DNA of 50,036 bases from Alteromonadaceae bacterium. GTDB taxonomy: Bacteria; Pseudomonadota; Gammaproteobacteria; Enterobacterales; Alteromonadaceae. Where the stretch lies: the NCBI GenBank assembly GCA_027013165.1, contig JALUXV010000350.1, forward strand, positions 1 to 50,036, in the 5' to 3' direction. Within the stretch, counting starts at the first letter, position 1; every line of letters begins with the position of its first letter. Shown one piece after another: positions 8,932-27,458 of this stretch. The translations under genes and the position numbers were made by a program. Below the pieces are notes generated by a model that had not been told where the DNA came from, searched no databases, and was given only the letters and a program-made list of their open reading frames with translations.

Positions 8932-10377
8932 TTACTCACTGCGTTCGACAGCTTGCGGCTCCGACAACGCCTTACGTCTTTTCAGGGCTTCATAATAGGG
9001 TGCAAAAGTTGGTCGCTCTACGTAGTGTCCGTCACCGGGTTTAGCAACCACTTCACCTTTCTCAAACGCCACCTTACCGTTACATATAGTGATCGCTGGA
9101 ATGCCTTTCACTTCCATGCCTTCGAAAATATTGTGTTCGATTTTCGACAGTTGAGTTTCTGCACTAAGCACTTTGGTCGCACTAGGATCCCACACTACAA
9201 TATCAGCATCAGCACCTACCGCTATCGCACCTTTTGCTGGGTACATGTTGAAGATTTTCGCCGCGTTGGTTGACGTTACCGCAACAAACTCGTTTGGTGT
9301 TAACTTGCCACTATTAACGCCCTTCTCCCACAAGACCGACATTCTTTCTTCAACTCCCGCAGTACCATTGGGTATTTTGGTGAAATCCTCTTTACCCATA
9401 GCCTTTTGAGAATTACAAAAAGCACAGTGGTCGGTTGCGGTCGTTTGCAAGGTGCCAGCCTGAAGCGCTTTCCACAATGCGTCTTGGTGTTTCTTTTCTC
9501 TAAATGGTGGGCTCATAACGTGAGCGGCGGCTTTCTCCCAGCTTGGATCTTGATAAACACTATCATCAACAACAAGATGACCGGCAAGCACTTCACCATA
9601 AACATGATGACCGCGGTTTTGAGCGTAGCGAATAGCATCTACCGACTCTTCCACTGAACAGTGCACCAAGTACAAAGGTGCTCCGATGGTTTCAGAGATA
9701 CTTATAGCGCGATAAGCAGCCTCGCCTTCTACCATAGGTGGGCGTGAAAGCGGGTGAGCCTCGGGCCCTGTTATACCTTTTTCAACCATTTGTTGTTGTA
9801 GGTGATATACCAGTTCGCCGTTCTCAGCATGAACCGTTGCAATAGCACCTAATTCTAAACAGCGAGTAAAGCTAGCCACCAAAATATCGTCGGTTGCCAT
9901 TATGGCATTTTTATATGCCATAAAGTGTTTAAAGCTATTGATACCGTAATCTGTAGTTAGGGTTTCCATATCTGCGGAAACTGATTCATCCCACCAAGTG
10001 ATAGCAACGTGAAACGTATAGTTTGCAAGTGACTTTTCTGACCAGTCTCGCCATTGATGGTAGGCTTCCATTAATGGTTGTCCCGGGCTCGGGATTACAA
10101 AATCAATGATAGTTGTTGTGCCACCCGCTAGGGCTGCTGCTGTGCCTGATGCAAAATCGTCGGCTGCGACCGTTCCCATAAATGGAAGTTGCATATGAGT
10201 GTGAGGATCAATGCCACCAGGCATGATAAGTTTATCAGTTACATCTATAACCTTTGCATCATCAGCGACTACGACATCCTTTGAAACTTGAGTAATTTTT
10301 CCGTTTTCACAGACTACGTCGGCTTTAAAAGAGGTTTCGTGGGTGACTACGGTGCCACCTCGAAGTACTAATTTCAT
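8932..10377 (-). CDS. hydA: Dihydropyrimidinase (hydantoinase family)
   Basis: A 481-residue cyclic amidohydrolase that opens dihydrouracil, dihydrothymine or hydantoin rings to N-carbamoyl amino acids. All binuclear-zinc ligands expected for the family are present: His59 and His61 (DPHTH), the carbamylated Lys150 ([10 protein letters not shown]), His183 (TVHAENGE), His239 (YLVHCS) and Asp316 (TDHCAF). AGGAG lies eight bases before the ATG. It is the third gene of an operon with an NCS1 transporter and an M20-type carbamoylase. The nearby beta-alanine aminotransferase and malonate-semialdehyde dehydrogenase favour pyrimidine breakdown over D-amino-acid hydantoin use. Substrate choice among pyrimidines and hydantoins cannot be read from the sequence. 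Confidence 0.93.
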
Positions 10378-10401
10378 TGCTAATCTCCTGTAAGCGTCGC
10401 G

Positions 10402-24963: not shown

Positions 24964-25142
24964 ACCCCTTTAATTTCAGTAGTACAAAAACCAAACACAT
25001 ACACAACACTTTCGGTTTTTCCTTTTTGGGATGGCATGTGCAGCTTTTGCAATCCGCAGTACCCGTATTGGTAAAAAGCGTGAATAAAACAAATTGACGC
25101 CTGACGAATAAATCAGACGCAAAACAACAAGGGAACGCAACA

Positions 25143-27458
25143 ATGCAATCAAGATATACACTTTGCGCTATCGCCATCGGTCTCGCGCTTCAGTCCTCTT
25201 ACACCGCTGCGGCAGACTCAGTAGTGCTAGAAAAAATTACCGTGACATCACAAAAACGGGAACAGTACATCAATGACGTAAGTATTGCTGTAACTGCATT
25301 TAGCGGTGAGCAAATGGAAGCGTTAGGCTTTGAGAGCAGCACCGACTTGATTGCATTTACGCCAGGTGTTTCTTTGGCTGGTGATATTGGTGGTCAACGG
25401 GCTATTTTTAATATTCGCGGTGTGGTTCAAAACGACTATGCAGACATTGCAGAGGCACCGGTTGCAGTTTATGTAGACGGCGGTTACTTAGCGAGTACTC
25501 AAGCGCAAACTTTTGGTTTATTTGATATTGATCGCGTTGAAATTCTAAAAGGCCCACAAGGTACACTGTTTGGTCGTAACGCTACCGGTGGTTTGGTGAA
25601 TACCATAACGGCTAAACCTACAGAAGAAACCGAGGGATACGCTGAACTTACCTTTGCTAGCTTTGAGCAAAAGCGTTTTGAAGGAGCCTACTCAGGTGCG
25701 CTTAGTGATTCTGTTCAAGGTCGTATATCTATTATGGCCAATAAAATGGGCAATATTCTCGAGAACGTATACGAAGACGGAGTGGCACCTGACACTCGCT
25801 TAGGTTCTGTTGGTGGTGGTGAAGACGGTTATAACGACGACACTAAAGCCATTCGCGCACAACTAAATTTTGATTTAACTACAAATTCAAACCTTCTTCT
25901 TAGTGCCAACTGGGCAGACACCACCAAAAGTGAAGGTCCTTATCAAGTAGTAAACACCACAGAAGTAAAAGACGCCGACGGCAATGTAATAGATGTTATT
26001 TACGCGGCCGACGACCCAATGGGTTGTGACACTATTCAAGCAGGCGCTTGTGTTGATGGTAACTTTAACGGCGACCCATACCGCCCAGTGCAAGGTGGTG
26101 ACTTCAACGGCAACATCGACCCAGACGGCAGCGGTGTAAAAGTGAATAAAGACTTTGCGTTTGAAGATCAAAACAAAATTGAGTCAAAGGGCTTAGCGGC
26201 TACCTACGAGTACTTTTTTGATAGCTTTACAGTTACCTCTGTTACCGACTGGAAAAACTTTACTCGTGTCATTGGATTGGACTCAGACCAAACCGCTTCA
26301 CCAGAGCTAATTTTCCAATCAGATGGCGACATTACTCAATTCAGTGAAGAGCTTCGCTTTAGCGGTGACACTATGAATAGTAAGTGGGTGGCGGGTTTAT
26401 ACTACCTAAATATCGACACTGACTATGTTCAAGGTTTGGCGGCATCTCCTACTGCGGGATGGTTGGCCGGTGAAGAACAAAACACATTAGCGTCAATTAA
26501 AACCGATTCTTACTCTATTTTTGGTCAACTTGATTATGAACTCACCGATGAATTGGTGCTTGTTACCGGTTTGCGTTTAGTTCAAGAAAACAAATCGTTA
26601 GATGGGCAGCTCGTTCAAAACCCAAATACCAACGACAGAGTCATCGAAATAGATAGCTCGGCAACACCACTGGTTGAAATGAGCTTAGATAACGACCAAT
26701 CAATGTGGTCGGCTAAAATTCAGCTTGATTACAGCCCAAGCAGCGACACTTTATTATATGCGGGCATAAACCGCGGTGTGAAAGCTGGTAACTTCAATGC
26801 GCCATTAGGCGGTGCGTTCAGTGCCTACGACCCAGAAGTACTATTAGCGTATGAAGCCGGAGCAAAATTAACCCTGCTTGATGGTAAAGCACAGCTTAAC
26901 AGTAGCATTTATTACTACGACTATACCGACTATCAGTCATTCTCGTGGGTGAATAACGCGGGCGTAGTATTTAACGAAGATGCAGCATTTACTGGTGCAG
27001 AGCTAGAATTATTCGTTAATCCTGTTGATGCCTTAGACATCATGTTTAGCGTGTCTTACACAGATGCAGTTGTAGAAGATTTGGAAGTTGCCTCTGGCAT
27101 ATTTAAAGACACTACACCTCCGTATACACCAGAGTGGCAGTCTTCTGGCTTAATTCGTTACACTTGGGATCTGGACAGTGGCGCACTGGCGGCACAGTTG
27201 AGTGGGTCGTATCAGTCTGAGTCTTTCCACAATGCGAGAAACTTTACTGCCCATACCATTGAAAGTCATTTCAAAGCAGACGCACGCTTGACGTGGACTG
27301 ACAACCAAGACTTATGGAGTGTTGCAGCCTACGTCAACAACCTTACTGACTCAGACCACGAAATTATTGGCTTTGACGTGTCGGGCTTCTACGGCACATC
27401 GCAAATCTCATATGCCAAGCCAAGAACCTTTGGTTTAACAGTGAAGCGTAATTTCTAA
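25143..27458 (+). CDS. TonB-dependent outer-membrane receptor
   Basis: A 771-residue TonB-dependent transporter. A signal peptide (about 1-23, ending SYTAAA) is followed by a TonB-box-like segment (LEKITVTSQKRE), a plug domain (about 40-160, with the FDIDRVEILKGPQGTLFGRNATGG signature) and a beta-barrel ending in the aromatic residue of KRNF. AGGGAACGC sits before the ATG. Acidic Asp/Gly-rich loops at about 290-340 could bind calcium. Two operators upstream, shared with the pyrimidine, F420 and LysR/aminotransferase promoters, suggest that it imports the pyrimidine, nucleoside or ureide substrate of the island. The substrate itself is inferred from context only. Confidence 0.92.
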   Translation: MQSRYTLCAIAIGLALQSSYTAAADSVVLEKITVTSQKREQYINDVSIAVTAFSGEQMEALGFESSTDLIAFTPGVSLAGDIGGQRAIFNIRGVVQNDYADIAEAPVAVYVDGGYLASTQAQTFGLFDIDRVEILKGPQGTLFGRNATGGLVNTITAKPTEETEGYAELTFASFEQKRFEGAYSGALSDSVQGRISIMANKMGNILENVYEDGVAPDTRLGSVGGGEDGYNDDTKAIRAQLNFDLTTNSNLLLSANWADTTKSEGPYQVVNTTEVKDADGNVIDVIYAADDPMGCDTIQAGACVDGNFNGDPYRPVQGGDFNGNIDPDGSGVKVNKDFAFEDQNKIESKGLAATYEYFFDSFTVTSVTDWKNFTRVIGLDSDQTASPELIFQSDGDITQFSEELRFSGDTMNSKWVAGLYYLNIDTDYVQGLAASPTAGWLAGEEQNTLASIKTDSYSIFGQLDYELTDELVLVTGLRLVQENKSLDGQLVQNPNTNDRVIEIDSSATPLVEMSLDNDQSMWSAKIQLDYSPSSDTLLYAGINRGVKAGNFNAPLGGAFSAYDPEVLLAYEAGAKLTLLDGKAQLNSSIYYYDYTDYQSFSWVNNAGVVFNEDAAFTGAELELFVNPVDALDIMFSVSYTDAVVEDLEVASGIFKDTTPPYTPEWQSSGLIRYTWDLDSGALAAQLSGSYQSESFHNARNFTAHTIESHFKADARLTWTDNQDLWSVAAYVNNLTDSDHEIIGFDVSGFYGTSQISYAKPRTFGLTVKRNF

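Follow-up and report, generated by a model that had tools for sequence, protein, structure and literature searches.

Gene content and organization

The window, by which we mean the whole 50,036-nucleotide stretch of DNA that was analysed, carries between positions 8,932 and 27,458 a set of genes that match families of reductive pyrimidine degradation and of F420 biosynthesis (Table 1). Gene identities were scored against NCBI's curated NCBIfam cut-offs and, for 10 genes, with Pfam, and every gene named in the initial annotation was recovered from the open reading frames where it had been placed, including the complete biosynthesis set (CofG, CofH, CofD, CofC and CofE), the F420 reductase NpdG and the luciferase-like (LLM) enzyme, all over their cut-offs. 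From cofG to the LLM gene the cluster forms a single tight unit, with 4-bp overlaps or gaps of 3–9 bp between neighbours by ORF coordinates. If the bacterial PEP route to F420 is used, a dehydro-F420 reductase of the FbiB C-terminal type is required. The downstream steps of the reductive Pyd pathway are all represented by family-level matches over cut-off: the dihydropyrimidinase would carry out the PydB step, from dihydrouracil to N-carbamoyl-beta-alanine, the M20 amidase is probably the beta-ureidopropionase (PydC step), and the omega-aminotransferase would convert beta-alanine or beta-aminoisobutyrate to the semialdehyde; a semialdehyde dehydrogenase is likewise present. The TonB receptor may perhaps serve outer-membrane uptake of a pyrimidine-containing substrate.

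Table 1. Features of the cluster, with scores in bits and curated cut-offs
Feature	Position	Strand	Match or remark
Dihydropyrimidinase	8932..10377	-	TIGR02033, 586.8 (cut-off 393)
NCS1 nucleobase:cation symporter	10402..11877	-	TIGR00800, 326 (slightly under cut-off 353)
M20-type hydantoinase/carbamoylase family amidase	11874..13139	-	TIGR01879, 424 (cut-off 204); NF006769, 591, also over cut-off
Operator-like palindrome TTTACCAAACGGTAAA	13231..13246	.	Ahead of M20-NCS1-dihydropyrimidinase operon
CoA-acylating (methyl)malonate-semialdehyde dehydrogenase (MMSDH)	13468..14967	-	TIGR01722, 656 (cut-off 448)
Omega-aminotransferase	14989..16317	-	NF052567, 666 (cut-off 500)
LysR-type regulator	16423..17346	+	Pfam HTH_1 and LysR_substrate; divergent from aminotransferase-MMSDH
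RutR-like TetR regulator	17418..18047	+	TIGR03613, 198.4 (under cut-off 368)
Operator-like palindrome TTTACCATTTGGTAAA	18274..18289	.	Ahead of cofG
CofG (FO synthase subunit)	18367..19515	+	TIGR03550, 453 (cut-off 213)
CofH (FO synthase subunit)	19519..20754	+	TIGR03551, 499 (cut-off 374)
CofD (2-phospho-L-lactate transferase family)	20751..21704	+	TIGR01819, 276 (cut-off 257)
CofC (guanylyltransferase)	21701..22312	+	TIGR03552, 130 (cut-off 105)
CofE (F420-0:glutamate ligase, single domain, 257 aa)	22322..23095	+	TIGR01916, 250 (cut-off 181)
NpdG, NADPH-dependent F420 reductase	23092..23760	+	TIGR01915, 198 (cut-off 150), scored on longer ORF 22996-23760; start 23092 read separately
LLM enzyme, proposed F420H2-dependent uracil/thymine reductase	23770..24777	+	TIGR03842, 518.1 (cut-off 295.45)
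Operator-like palindrome TTTACCTGATGGTAAA	24948..24963	.	Ahead of TonB receptor
TonB-dependent receptor	25143..27458	+	Pfam Plug and TonB_dep_Rec_b-barrel

Recurrence of the gene set

A genome of the same genus has the gene set as well, and a part of it is found in another family within the class. We compared 80 named LLM loci, the best 80 of 156, with flanks of up to 10 kb, many of them cut by contig ends; these loci, to which all counts in this paragraph refer, are not independent, as 19 belong to Marinomonas. They place the gene set in Gamma-, Beta- and Alphaproteobacteria. At least three of cofGHDCE accompany the LLM gene in 64 of the 80, NpdG in 63, a RutR-like gene in 59, a dihydropyrimidinase or ureidopropionase in 45 and an NCS1 gene in 36; at least one of dihydropyrimidinase, ureidopropionase, NCS1 and RutR is present in 65. 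Because it recurs in the same genus, in another family and across these loci, the gene set is not a chance neighbourhood. The remaining 15 loci, which have no pyrimidine gene in view within their flanks, comprise four on short or cut contigs (L044, L076, L093 and L098), nine of an F420-salvage type, and L095 and L099. Pyrimidine salvage genes adjoin the LLM gene in three loci: L077 has a DeoA homolog, L092 thymidine phosphorylase and Upp, and L103 reads NCS1-LLM-TonB-thymidine phosphorylase-cytidine deaminase-Upp-nitrilase-family amidase-dihydropyrimidinase-aminotransferase-MMSDH.

The nine salvage-type loci, in which LLM is paired with genes for F420 salvage and pyrimidine genes are missing (best 80 of 156), could suggest a hitch-hiking redox module, made up of the F420 genes and LLM and serving, say, xenobiotic reduction, that merely adjoins a pyrimidine cluster. 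L095 and L099 point the same way, as does a Paracoccus alcaliphilus plasmid on which cofGHDCE-npdG-LLM is accompanied by an ABC transporter, with no dihydropyrimidinase, NCS1 or RutR within 15 kb, and a further proteobacterial cof cluster (G477) serves another LLM enzyme. Against this, the association is common to Gamma-, Beta- and Alphaproteobacteria and extends to Streptomyces, in which an LLM homolog of 44% identity begins 11 bp downstream of a dihydropyrimidinase and no cof genes were seen within 15 kb. Across loci, LLM distances track those of RutR and of M20 (rho 0.85 each, shared ancestry ignored), and one operator-like site precedes cofG, the M20 gene and the TonB gene alike. We regard a hitch-hiking module as highly improbable.

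Family and fold of the LLM enzyme

The LLM enzyme is a member of TIGR03842 (F420_CPS_4043), an NCBIfam hypothetical equivalog whose name assigns no reaction; NCBI's note on the family presumably remarks on its gene context. A PDB profile search returned 11 matches, the first six of which were Mer, the F420-dependent methylene-tetrahydromethanopterin reductase, and ranks 1–18 of a Foldseek search were all F420 enzymes, the query being a ligand-free predicted model of low confidence at residues 221–280 (block means 56–72). Mer is the closest solved relative in both fold and sequence, at 25–27% identity in Foldseek, and the equivalents of its Asp96 and position 178 are kept as D97 and Q173 (50 of 50 aligned). 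In contrast, the Glu6 to which a catalytic role is ascribed in the available text on Mer (PMC11094777) is replaced by Thr in 27 and by Cys in 23 of the 50, and the enzyme scores 122.6 with the Mer model, below the cut-off of 348.7.

An oxidative ring opening, with LLM as a flavin-dependent oxygenase like RutA, might be considered given the enzyme's Pfam Bac_luciferase domain, since RutA is a member of the same superfamily. We give this very little credence. TIGR03612 (RutA) is absent among the 22 NCBIfam models matched by LLM, its closest solved relatives are F420 enzymes, and a dihydropyrimidinase has a role only after ring reduction. Searching the best 80 of 156 loci with the E. coli Rut enzymes gave no RutA ortholog, eight RutA matches of 26–28% identity that all fall on FGD-like genes, and otherwise one weak RutF and one weak RutD match.

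Other uracil enzymes

PreA and PreT had zero matches in the LLM loci (best 80 of 156), and the genome of the window has no PreA, the PydA/PreTA-type first enzyme. Among 55 LLM genomes, RutA was over its curated cut-off in none, with matches under it in two (G214, 265 bits; G667, 182 bits), and PreA was over cut-off in nine, namely eight Rhodobacterales-type records and Trinickia. Hence the first step of uracil breakdown would otherwise be missing from most of them: 46 of the 55, the window's own included, have neither PreA nor RutA over cut-off, which again argues against an unrelated module. PreA regions from three of the nine genomes are PreTA-RutR-M20-dihydropyrimidinase clusters, and LLM in such genomes would therefore be redundant or slightly different in function. 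Some lineages thus fit untidily, with PreA co-present or with pyrimidine genes out of view. Across the order, 17 of the 24 genomes with a dihydropyrimidinase hold PreA, whereas the genome of the window holds LLM instead; six hold neither, so a dihydropyrimidinase alone is no proof of uracil catabolism.

Supply and use of F420

CofG is present in 49 of the 55 LLM genomes. Of the other six, two have cof operons that run to the contig end and four have LLM together with FGD, CofE and an ABC transporter, which in L105 carries the NCBIfam name 'putative F420-0 ABC transporter'. Of the order's 295 genomes, two have CofG, and these same two are the ones with LLM. The genome of the window encodes exactly one PF00296 (LLM-superfamily) protein, the enzyme of the cluster. 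The cofactor need not be dedicated to LLM everywhere, as G214 has four PF00296 proteins and G442 two (the search covered PF00296 and not the FDOR superfamily).

F420 is the electron acceptor in some relatives of LLM, such as the F420-dependent alcohol and glucose-6-phosphate dehydrogenases, and LLM might likewise run in reverse, oxidizing dihydropyrimidines and making F420H2 for another use. This seems extremely unlikely: NpdG, present in 63 loci (best 80 of 156), works in bacteria mainly in the direction of F420 reduction according to the available text of a 2021 review (PMC8498797), and the window's genome has no second LLM to consume F420H2, within the PF00296 proteins searched. Nearby NAD(P) transhydrogenase genes, which lie inside the cluster on a Leisingera plasmid and have homologs in 15 loci (best 80 of 156), suggest a demand for NADPH.

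Regulation and substrate

The shared palindromes of the initial annotation are genuine: the 50 kb contain TTTACCNNNNGGTAAA exactly three times, at 13231, 18274 and 24948, which is 91 bp upstream of the M20 gene, 77 bp of cofG and 179 bp of the TonB gene, and 20 Markov copies of the window lack it. In loci L036–L081, mainly gammaproteobacterial, TTTACC-N4-GGTAAA stands ahead of cofG in 41 of the 42 that could be examined, upstream of the TonB homolog in 5 of 5 and upstream of M20 in 24 of 37, and is lacking upstream of the omega-aminotransferase (0/8), LysR (0/8) and MMSDH (0/9) genes. These loci hold 82 sites in total, against 3, 4 and 3 in Markov copies. In the beta- and alphaproteobacterial loci (L082–L115) the palindrome precedes cofG in only 1 of 19. 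The single regulon that had been suggested therefore stands in part: cofG-to-LLM, M20-NCS1-dihydropyrimidinase and TonB share the palindrome, but aminotransferase-MMSDH does not and probably answers to the divergent LysR.

The window's RutR-like regulator, although under the curated cut-off, keeps W77, Y97, W167, Q171 and Q179 of E. coli RutR, the five uracil contacts given in a figure legend of PMC10891134. All five are kept in each of 69 aligned sequences, from E. coli, the window, 59 of the LLM loci (best 80 of 156), two further genomes and six PreTA clusters. RutR would occupy TTTACC-N4-GGTAAA before the three units and be released by uracil; with the cof operon under such control, F420 itself would be produced on demand.

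The initial annotation had also allowed for a cyclic ureide as substrate. LLM might reduce a related heterocycle (hydantoin, a 5-substituted uracil or another cyclic ureide), with dihydropyrimidinase and M20 as a general hydantoinase system: both families span several substrates by name (hydantoinase, allantoinase and carbamoylase models), nine of the 55 LLM genomes already hold PreA, and an F420-dependent luciferase-family yanthine reductase was proposed in Chloroflexota in 2025, as far as the available text tells (PMC12507026). We nevertheless consider this unlikely and favour uracil and thymine, because the uracil contacts are kept in 59 of 59 aligned RutRs from the LLM loci (best 80 of 156), because salvage genes for thymidine and uracil lie in L077, L092 and L103, and because clusters elsewhere have PreTA next to these accessory genes (PreT-PreA is grouped with RutR, M20 and dihydropyrimidinase in six of eight PreA regions examined, L161–L166). 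A (methyl)malonate-semialdehyde dehydrogenase also suits the end products of uracil and thymine.

Proposed pathway and relation to known systems

From the comparison of genes and genomes, the cluster very probably encodes reductive pyrimidine degradation in which an F420H2-dependent LLM uracil/thymine reductase takes the place of PreTA (PydA) as first enzyme. Substrate would enter through the TonB receptor and NCS1, NpdG would reduce F420 with NADPH, and LLM would pass a hydride from F420H2 to uracil, yielding dihydrouracil. Dihydropyrimidinase and the M20 carbamoylase would then give beta-alanine, CO2 and NH3, and the aminotransferase and CoA-acylating dehydrogenase acetyl-CoA, or propionyl-CoA from thymine. 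The F420-driven pathway with its own cofactor supply that the initial annotation put forward agrees with the bulk of the comparative evidence, and it withstood the searches for other uracil enzymes, for other LLM-superfamily proteins in the genome and for recurrence of the context. We further think it probable, on sequence grounds, that LLM is a non-homologous dihydropyrimidine dehydrogenase, a single-chain F420H2-dependent enzyme instead of the flavin/iron-sulfur PydA, and that F420 is a substrate-inducible catabolic tool in many Proteobacteria, made by one uracil-induced operon that serves, in the window's genome, the sole LLM-superfamily enzyme, with F420-0 import as the alternative supply in Devosia-type bacteria.

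Among the papers available to our literature search, none was found to describe an F420-linked uracil-breakdown cluster. The available parts of the 2021 review state that, Actinobacteria apart, bacterial F420H2-dependent reductases and F420-reducing dehydrogenases had all gone without experimental study, and the reason why Proteobacteria and Chloroflexi make F420 is listed as unanswered (PMC8498797). The excerpted text of a 2022 paper calls its physiological role in Gram-negative producers still unknown (PMC8764529), and that of a 2024 paper links the deazaflavin of one betaproteobacterium to fungal symbiosis and reports no F420-dependent oxidoreductase genes there (PMC11104420). The proposed pathway, if true, would supply the reason for F420 production by Proteobacteria of these lineages and could explain the mere traces of F420 from two alphaproteobacteria, assuming that they have the cluster. 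It would also mean that a new enzyme catalyses a central step of pyrimidine catabolism and that a redox cofactor is made only in the presence of its substrate, and it would offer a route to predicting uracil use in bacteria without PreTA and Rut.

With the Rut pathway (RutA-G) the cluster shares a RutR-type regulator and uracil as proposed substrate, but RutA over cut-off is lacking in all 55 LLM genomes. The Chloroflexota yanthine reductase, a bioinformatic proposal, is likewise a luciferase-family and presumably F420-dependent enzyme that would reduce a uracil-type ring within a nitrogen catabolic cluster, but it belongs to a purine (uric-acid) pathway in another phylum, and the available text mentions no co-located cofactor synthesis or RutR regulon (PMC12507026). 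The PreTA/PydA-based Pyd pathway has the same dihydropyrimidinase, ureidopropionase-type amidase, beta-alanine-type aminotransferase, semialdehyde dehydrogenase and RutR-type regulator, whereas the window's first enzyme has the unrelated LLM fold and F420 as proposed carrier, whose biosynthesis genes are part of the operon. The ferredoxin-dependent PydAc of Clostridium sets a precedent for a change of electron donor at the first Pyd step; in the text available, it is a PydA homolog minus a domain (PMC7332683), whereas the window's enzyme is non-homologous and its proposed donor is F420H2.

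Gene cluster and its recurrence

From its genes, the cluster very probably encodes a reductive pyrimidine pathway in which the LLM protein (TIGR03842) would serve as an F420H2-dependent uracil/thymine reductase, with cofactor synthesis placed under RutR. The gene list and outer coordinates of the initial annotation were correct according to open reading frames, NCBIfam and Pfam, and neighbours from cofG to LLM overlap by 4 bp or are spaced by 3–9 bp. The 50-kb contig (C350) belongs to a genome of 4.79 Mb in 586 contigs, which is listed as 100% complete with 6.53% contamination. 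The pathway logic is identical to that of the known reductive route, whereas the first enzyme, the electron carrier and the control of the cofactor operon would differ here.

Features of the cluster and the adjacent gene
Feature	Position	Direction	Remark
M20 amidase-NCS1-dihydropyrimidinase	13139 to 8932	leftward	
Aminotransferase-MMSDH	16317 to 13468	leftward	
LysR, RutR-like, then cofG-cofH-cofD-cofC-cofE-npdG-LLM	cofG to LLM 18367-24777	rightward	
TonB receptor	25143-27458	rightward	after LLM
ECF-type sigma factor domain with long C-terminal part	27530-29149	(-)	outside the cluster; C-terminal part membrane-like by eye

A PydA that depends on ferredoxin has been known since 2020 (PMC7332683), and the nearest published idea that we found dates from 2025, when a luciferase-family enzyme was proposed to reduce yanthine with F420 in Chloroflexota (PMC12507026). 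The role of F420 in Proteobacteria was called open by a 2021 review (PMC8498797) and a 2022 paper (PMC8764529), the deazaflavin of Mycetohabitans was tied to fungal symbiosis in 2024 (PMC11104420), and the main text of a study of RutR regulons across Proteobacteria does not mention F420 (PMC5343134). In the titles, abstracts and passages of the open-licence papers that we covered, we found no description of F420 joined with dihydropyrimidinase or uracil catabolism. Within that literature the F420-driven version thus appears new, as had been supposed, in its non-homologous first enzyme, its electron carrier and its cofactor operon under a catabolic regulator.

The same gene set had been proposed for a search in relatives. 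A genome of the same genus (G214) carries all 15 genes in unchanged order and relative orientation, with an LLM 95% identical, and the window LLM is also 95% identical to three Alteromonas records, which suggests an Alteromonas-like source. In G442, a genome from a different family in the class, M20-NCS1-dihydropyrimidinase diverges from RutR-cof-npdG-LLM with MMSDH nearby, and the 40 kb examined hold no LysR, aminotransferase or TonB match. Searching named genomes with the LLM alignment yielded 156 relatives, and the module recurs across the best 80 of the 156 loci, many of which end at contig ends. These 80 come from Alteromonas, Marinomonas (19), Vibrio, Oceanospirillum, Marinobacterium, Halomonas, Marinobacter, Herbaspirillum, Trinickia, Paraburkholderia, Limimaricola, Leisingera, Pseudovibrio, Devosia and others. 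Among the best 80, at least three of cofGHDCE are present in 64, NpdG in 63, a RutR-like gene in 59, a ureidopropionase-type amidase in 44, NCS1 in 36 and dihydropyrimidinase in 18; 65 have at least one of the last four, the pyrimidine markers. The low dihydropyrimidinase count may reflect its outermost position, often past the end of the flank. LLM is the most conserved of eight genes compared (mean pairwise identity about 0.8 versus 0.52–0.70), and its distances correlate with those of its neighbours (Spearman 0.40–0.85, 0 of 200 permutations as high), shared ancestry being uncorrected in this comparison.

Substrate and first enzyme

Pyrimidine salvage genes accompany LLM in three of the best 80 of 156 loci. 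L103 has a row of NCS1, LLM, TonB receptor, thymidine phosphorylase, cytidine deaminase, uracil phosphoribosyltransferase, nitrilase-family amidase, dihydropyrimidinase, aminotransferase and MMSDH; in L092, NCS1, dihydropyrimidinase, LLM and aminotransferase have thymidine phosphorylase, DeoD and uracil phosphoribosyltransferase close by; and L077 contains a DeoA homolog. The LLM homolog of Streptomyces sp. BHT-5-2 (44% identity, 590 bits to TIGR03842) starts 11 bp past a dihydropyrimidinase (554 bits); upstream is a nitrilase-type amidase. All five residues that contact uracil in E. coli RutR (W77, Y97, W167, Q171 and Q179'; PMC10891134) are kept in the RutR-like protein of the window, as they are in 69 of 69 aligned RutR sequences, including 59 from the 80 loci and six from PreTA clusters. 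LLM matches also occur in 14 plasmid records (10 from Leisingera, one read in detail). On a Paracoccus alcaliphilus plasmid (L170), the genes of an ABC transporter (substrate-binding protein, ATPase and permease) come after cofGHDCE-npdG-LLM, and no gene for pyrimidine catabolism lies within 15 kb. This plasmid and the additional LLM-superfamily genes of G214 and G442 slightly lower our confidence in the F420-dependent pyrimidine pathway as a whole.

The known first enzymes were sought by whole-genome searches of 55 LLM genomes (G000, G214, G442 and the genomes of 52 of the 80 loci). RutA exceeded the cut-off in none of them (two weaker matches had 265 and 182 bits), and PreA exceeded it in nine; the source genome, searched whole, has neither over the cut-off. 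Within the best 80 of 156 loci, PreA and PreT have no match, and the eight RutA matches (26–28% identity) all fall on FGD-like genes. That LLM is a RutA-like oxygenase is rejected on its family scores, its nearest PDB structures and the genes around it. Dihydropyrimidinase is over the cut-off in 24 of 197 genomes of the order, of which 17 have PreA, six have neither PreA nor LLM, and the source genome has LLM. Six of eight fetched PreA regions (L161-L166) combine PreT-PreA with RutR, M20 and dihydropyrimidinase; in L167 the pair is joined by dihydropyrimidinase and NCS1, and L168 has PreA-PreT alone. Since most of these genomes lack both PreA and RutA over the cut-off, and since genes are shared with PreTA clusters, LLM seems to take the place that PreTA has in other genomes. 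The PreA-bearing LLM genomes, Rhodobacterales and Trinickia, fit this poorly: the three of nine that were fetched each have a PreTA cluster plus an LLM cluster.

A profile search found 11 solved structures, of which ranks 1–6 are Mer and rank 10 is a non-F420 enzyme; in a fold search (model mean pLDDT 85.9) ranks 1–18 are F420 enzymes, with other enzymes from rank 19. Mer proper is ruled out by a score under the cut-off and the loss of Glu6. Four positions are described for the Mer substrate site (Glu6, Phe233, Gln178 and Asp96) in PMC11094777, Asp96 contacting the pyrimidine ring of the pterin. The LLM equivalents D97 (Asp96) and Q173 (position 178, Asn in the Mer sequence that we compared and Gln in that paper) are present in 50 of 50 sequences, as is V63, the cis-peptide valine, whereas Glu6 is replaced by Thr (27/50) or Cys (23/50). 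LLM would thus keep residues able to position a pyrimidine ring above the deazaflavin and lack the substrate-activating acid of Mer.

Cofactor and electron supply

CofG was found in 49 of the 55 LLM genomes. In four metagenome-assembled genomes with LLM and no cof genes nearby (G665, G670, G675 and G683) it lies elsewhere in a frame of 828–847 aa, a length that suggests fused CofGH. Of the six genomes lacking CofG, two have a cof operon reaching the contig end (L044, L098) and four have LLM with FGD, CofE and an ABC transporter (L097, L104, L105, L110). In L105 these genes match TIGR03554, TIGR01916, TIGR03868 and TIGR03869 over the cut-off, and its ATPase has TIGR03873 as best model, under the cut-off; NCBIfam names TIGR03868, TIGR03869 and TIGR03873 'putative F420-0 ABC transporter'. 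All 55 therefore have some sign of F420 supply, the genome-wide search being for CofG only. Paraburkholderia antibiotica (G673, L090) has two CofG genes: the 807-aa frame of one probably represents a fused CofGH, and the other, a single-length copy, presumably belongs to the cof operon beside LLM. L095 and L099 have cof genes and an FGD-like LLM, with NpdG absent beside TIGR03842, as if the enzyme that reduces F420 had been exchanged. L096, titled Nocardioides marinus, is probably mislabelled or contaminated, since its cluster is Leisingera-like and alphaproteobacterial.

F420 might instead serve general physiology. CofG occurs in two of 295 genomes of the order, exactly those with LLM, and in four of 398 in the phylum sample, two of them with LLM. 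PF00296 has one member in the source genome (LLM itself), four in G214 and two in G442. From its single LLM-superfamily gene, general F420 physiology is unlikely for the source genome, yet not for all Proteobacteria: G477 (L159) has a cof cluster and a different LLM beside acyl-CoA-type genes (by eye, from open reading frames), G423 (L158) has CofG in an 896-aa frame, and neither has a TIGR03842 match at 1e-40, so other uses probably exist in the phylum.

On a Leisingera caerulea plasmid, NCS1-dihydropyrimidinase-M20-AT-PntB-PntA diverges from cofGHDCE-npdG-LLM-RutR. Its NAD(P) transhydrogenase PntAB (L171:6254-9271, identity confirmed), which separates the pyrimidine genes from the cof operon, is a plausible source of NADPH for NpdG. 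PntA or PntB homologs occur in 15 of the best 80 of 156 loci (seven Halomonas-type, Marinobacter, Marinobacterium, a Burkholderia and five Rhodobacterales). PntAB in or near LLM clusters suggests that electrons would pass from NADH to NADPH, F420H2 and then uracil.

Regulation

Shared palindromes had been said to link the parts of the cluster. The window has three exact copies of TTTACC-N4-GGTAAA, one each ahead of M20, cofG and TonB, which bears this out for those units; aminotransferase-MMSDH and LysR have no site, and the former probably answers to LysR, judging by this distribution. In loci L036-L081 (up to one mismatch, no more than 350 bp ahead of the gene) the palindrome precedes cofG in 41/42, TonB in 5/5, M20 in 24/37 and RutR in 21/43, the last probably shared with the divergent M20 gene. 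It was found before none of 8 omAT, 8 LysR, 9 MMSDH, 22 dihydropyrimidinase and 31 NCS1 genes, the last two probably being internal to the M20 operon in many loci. The total is 82 sites, versus 3, 4 and 3 in Markov copies; this count and the recurrence of the module rule out a chance neighbourhood.

The palindrome is close to the E. coli RutR box, TTGACCANNTGGTCAA; allowing three mismatches, the window contains nine imperfect copies of that box (2.7 expected), three of them the local box. The local box also occurs in the Thalassovita PreTA cluster (L164). From the palindrome distribution, F420 synthesis is predicted to be RutR-controlled in the gammaproteobacterial branch. Among L082-L115 the palindrome precedes cofG in 1 of 19, and the beta- and alphaproteobacterial loci have no consistent RutR-box match upstream of cofG. 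In all nine of the loci L097, L102, L104-L107, L109, L110 and L112, which have no pyrimidine genes nearby, a conserved TTGATCGWCTGGTCAA palindrome, two mismatches off the E. coli RutR box, stands about 17–29 bp before LLM.
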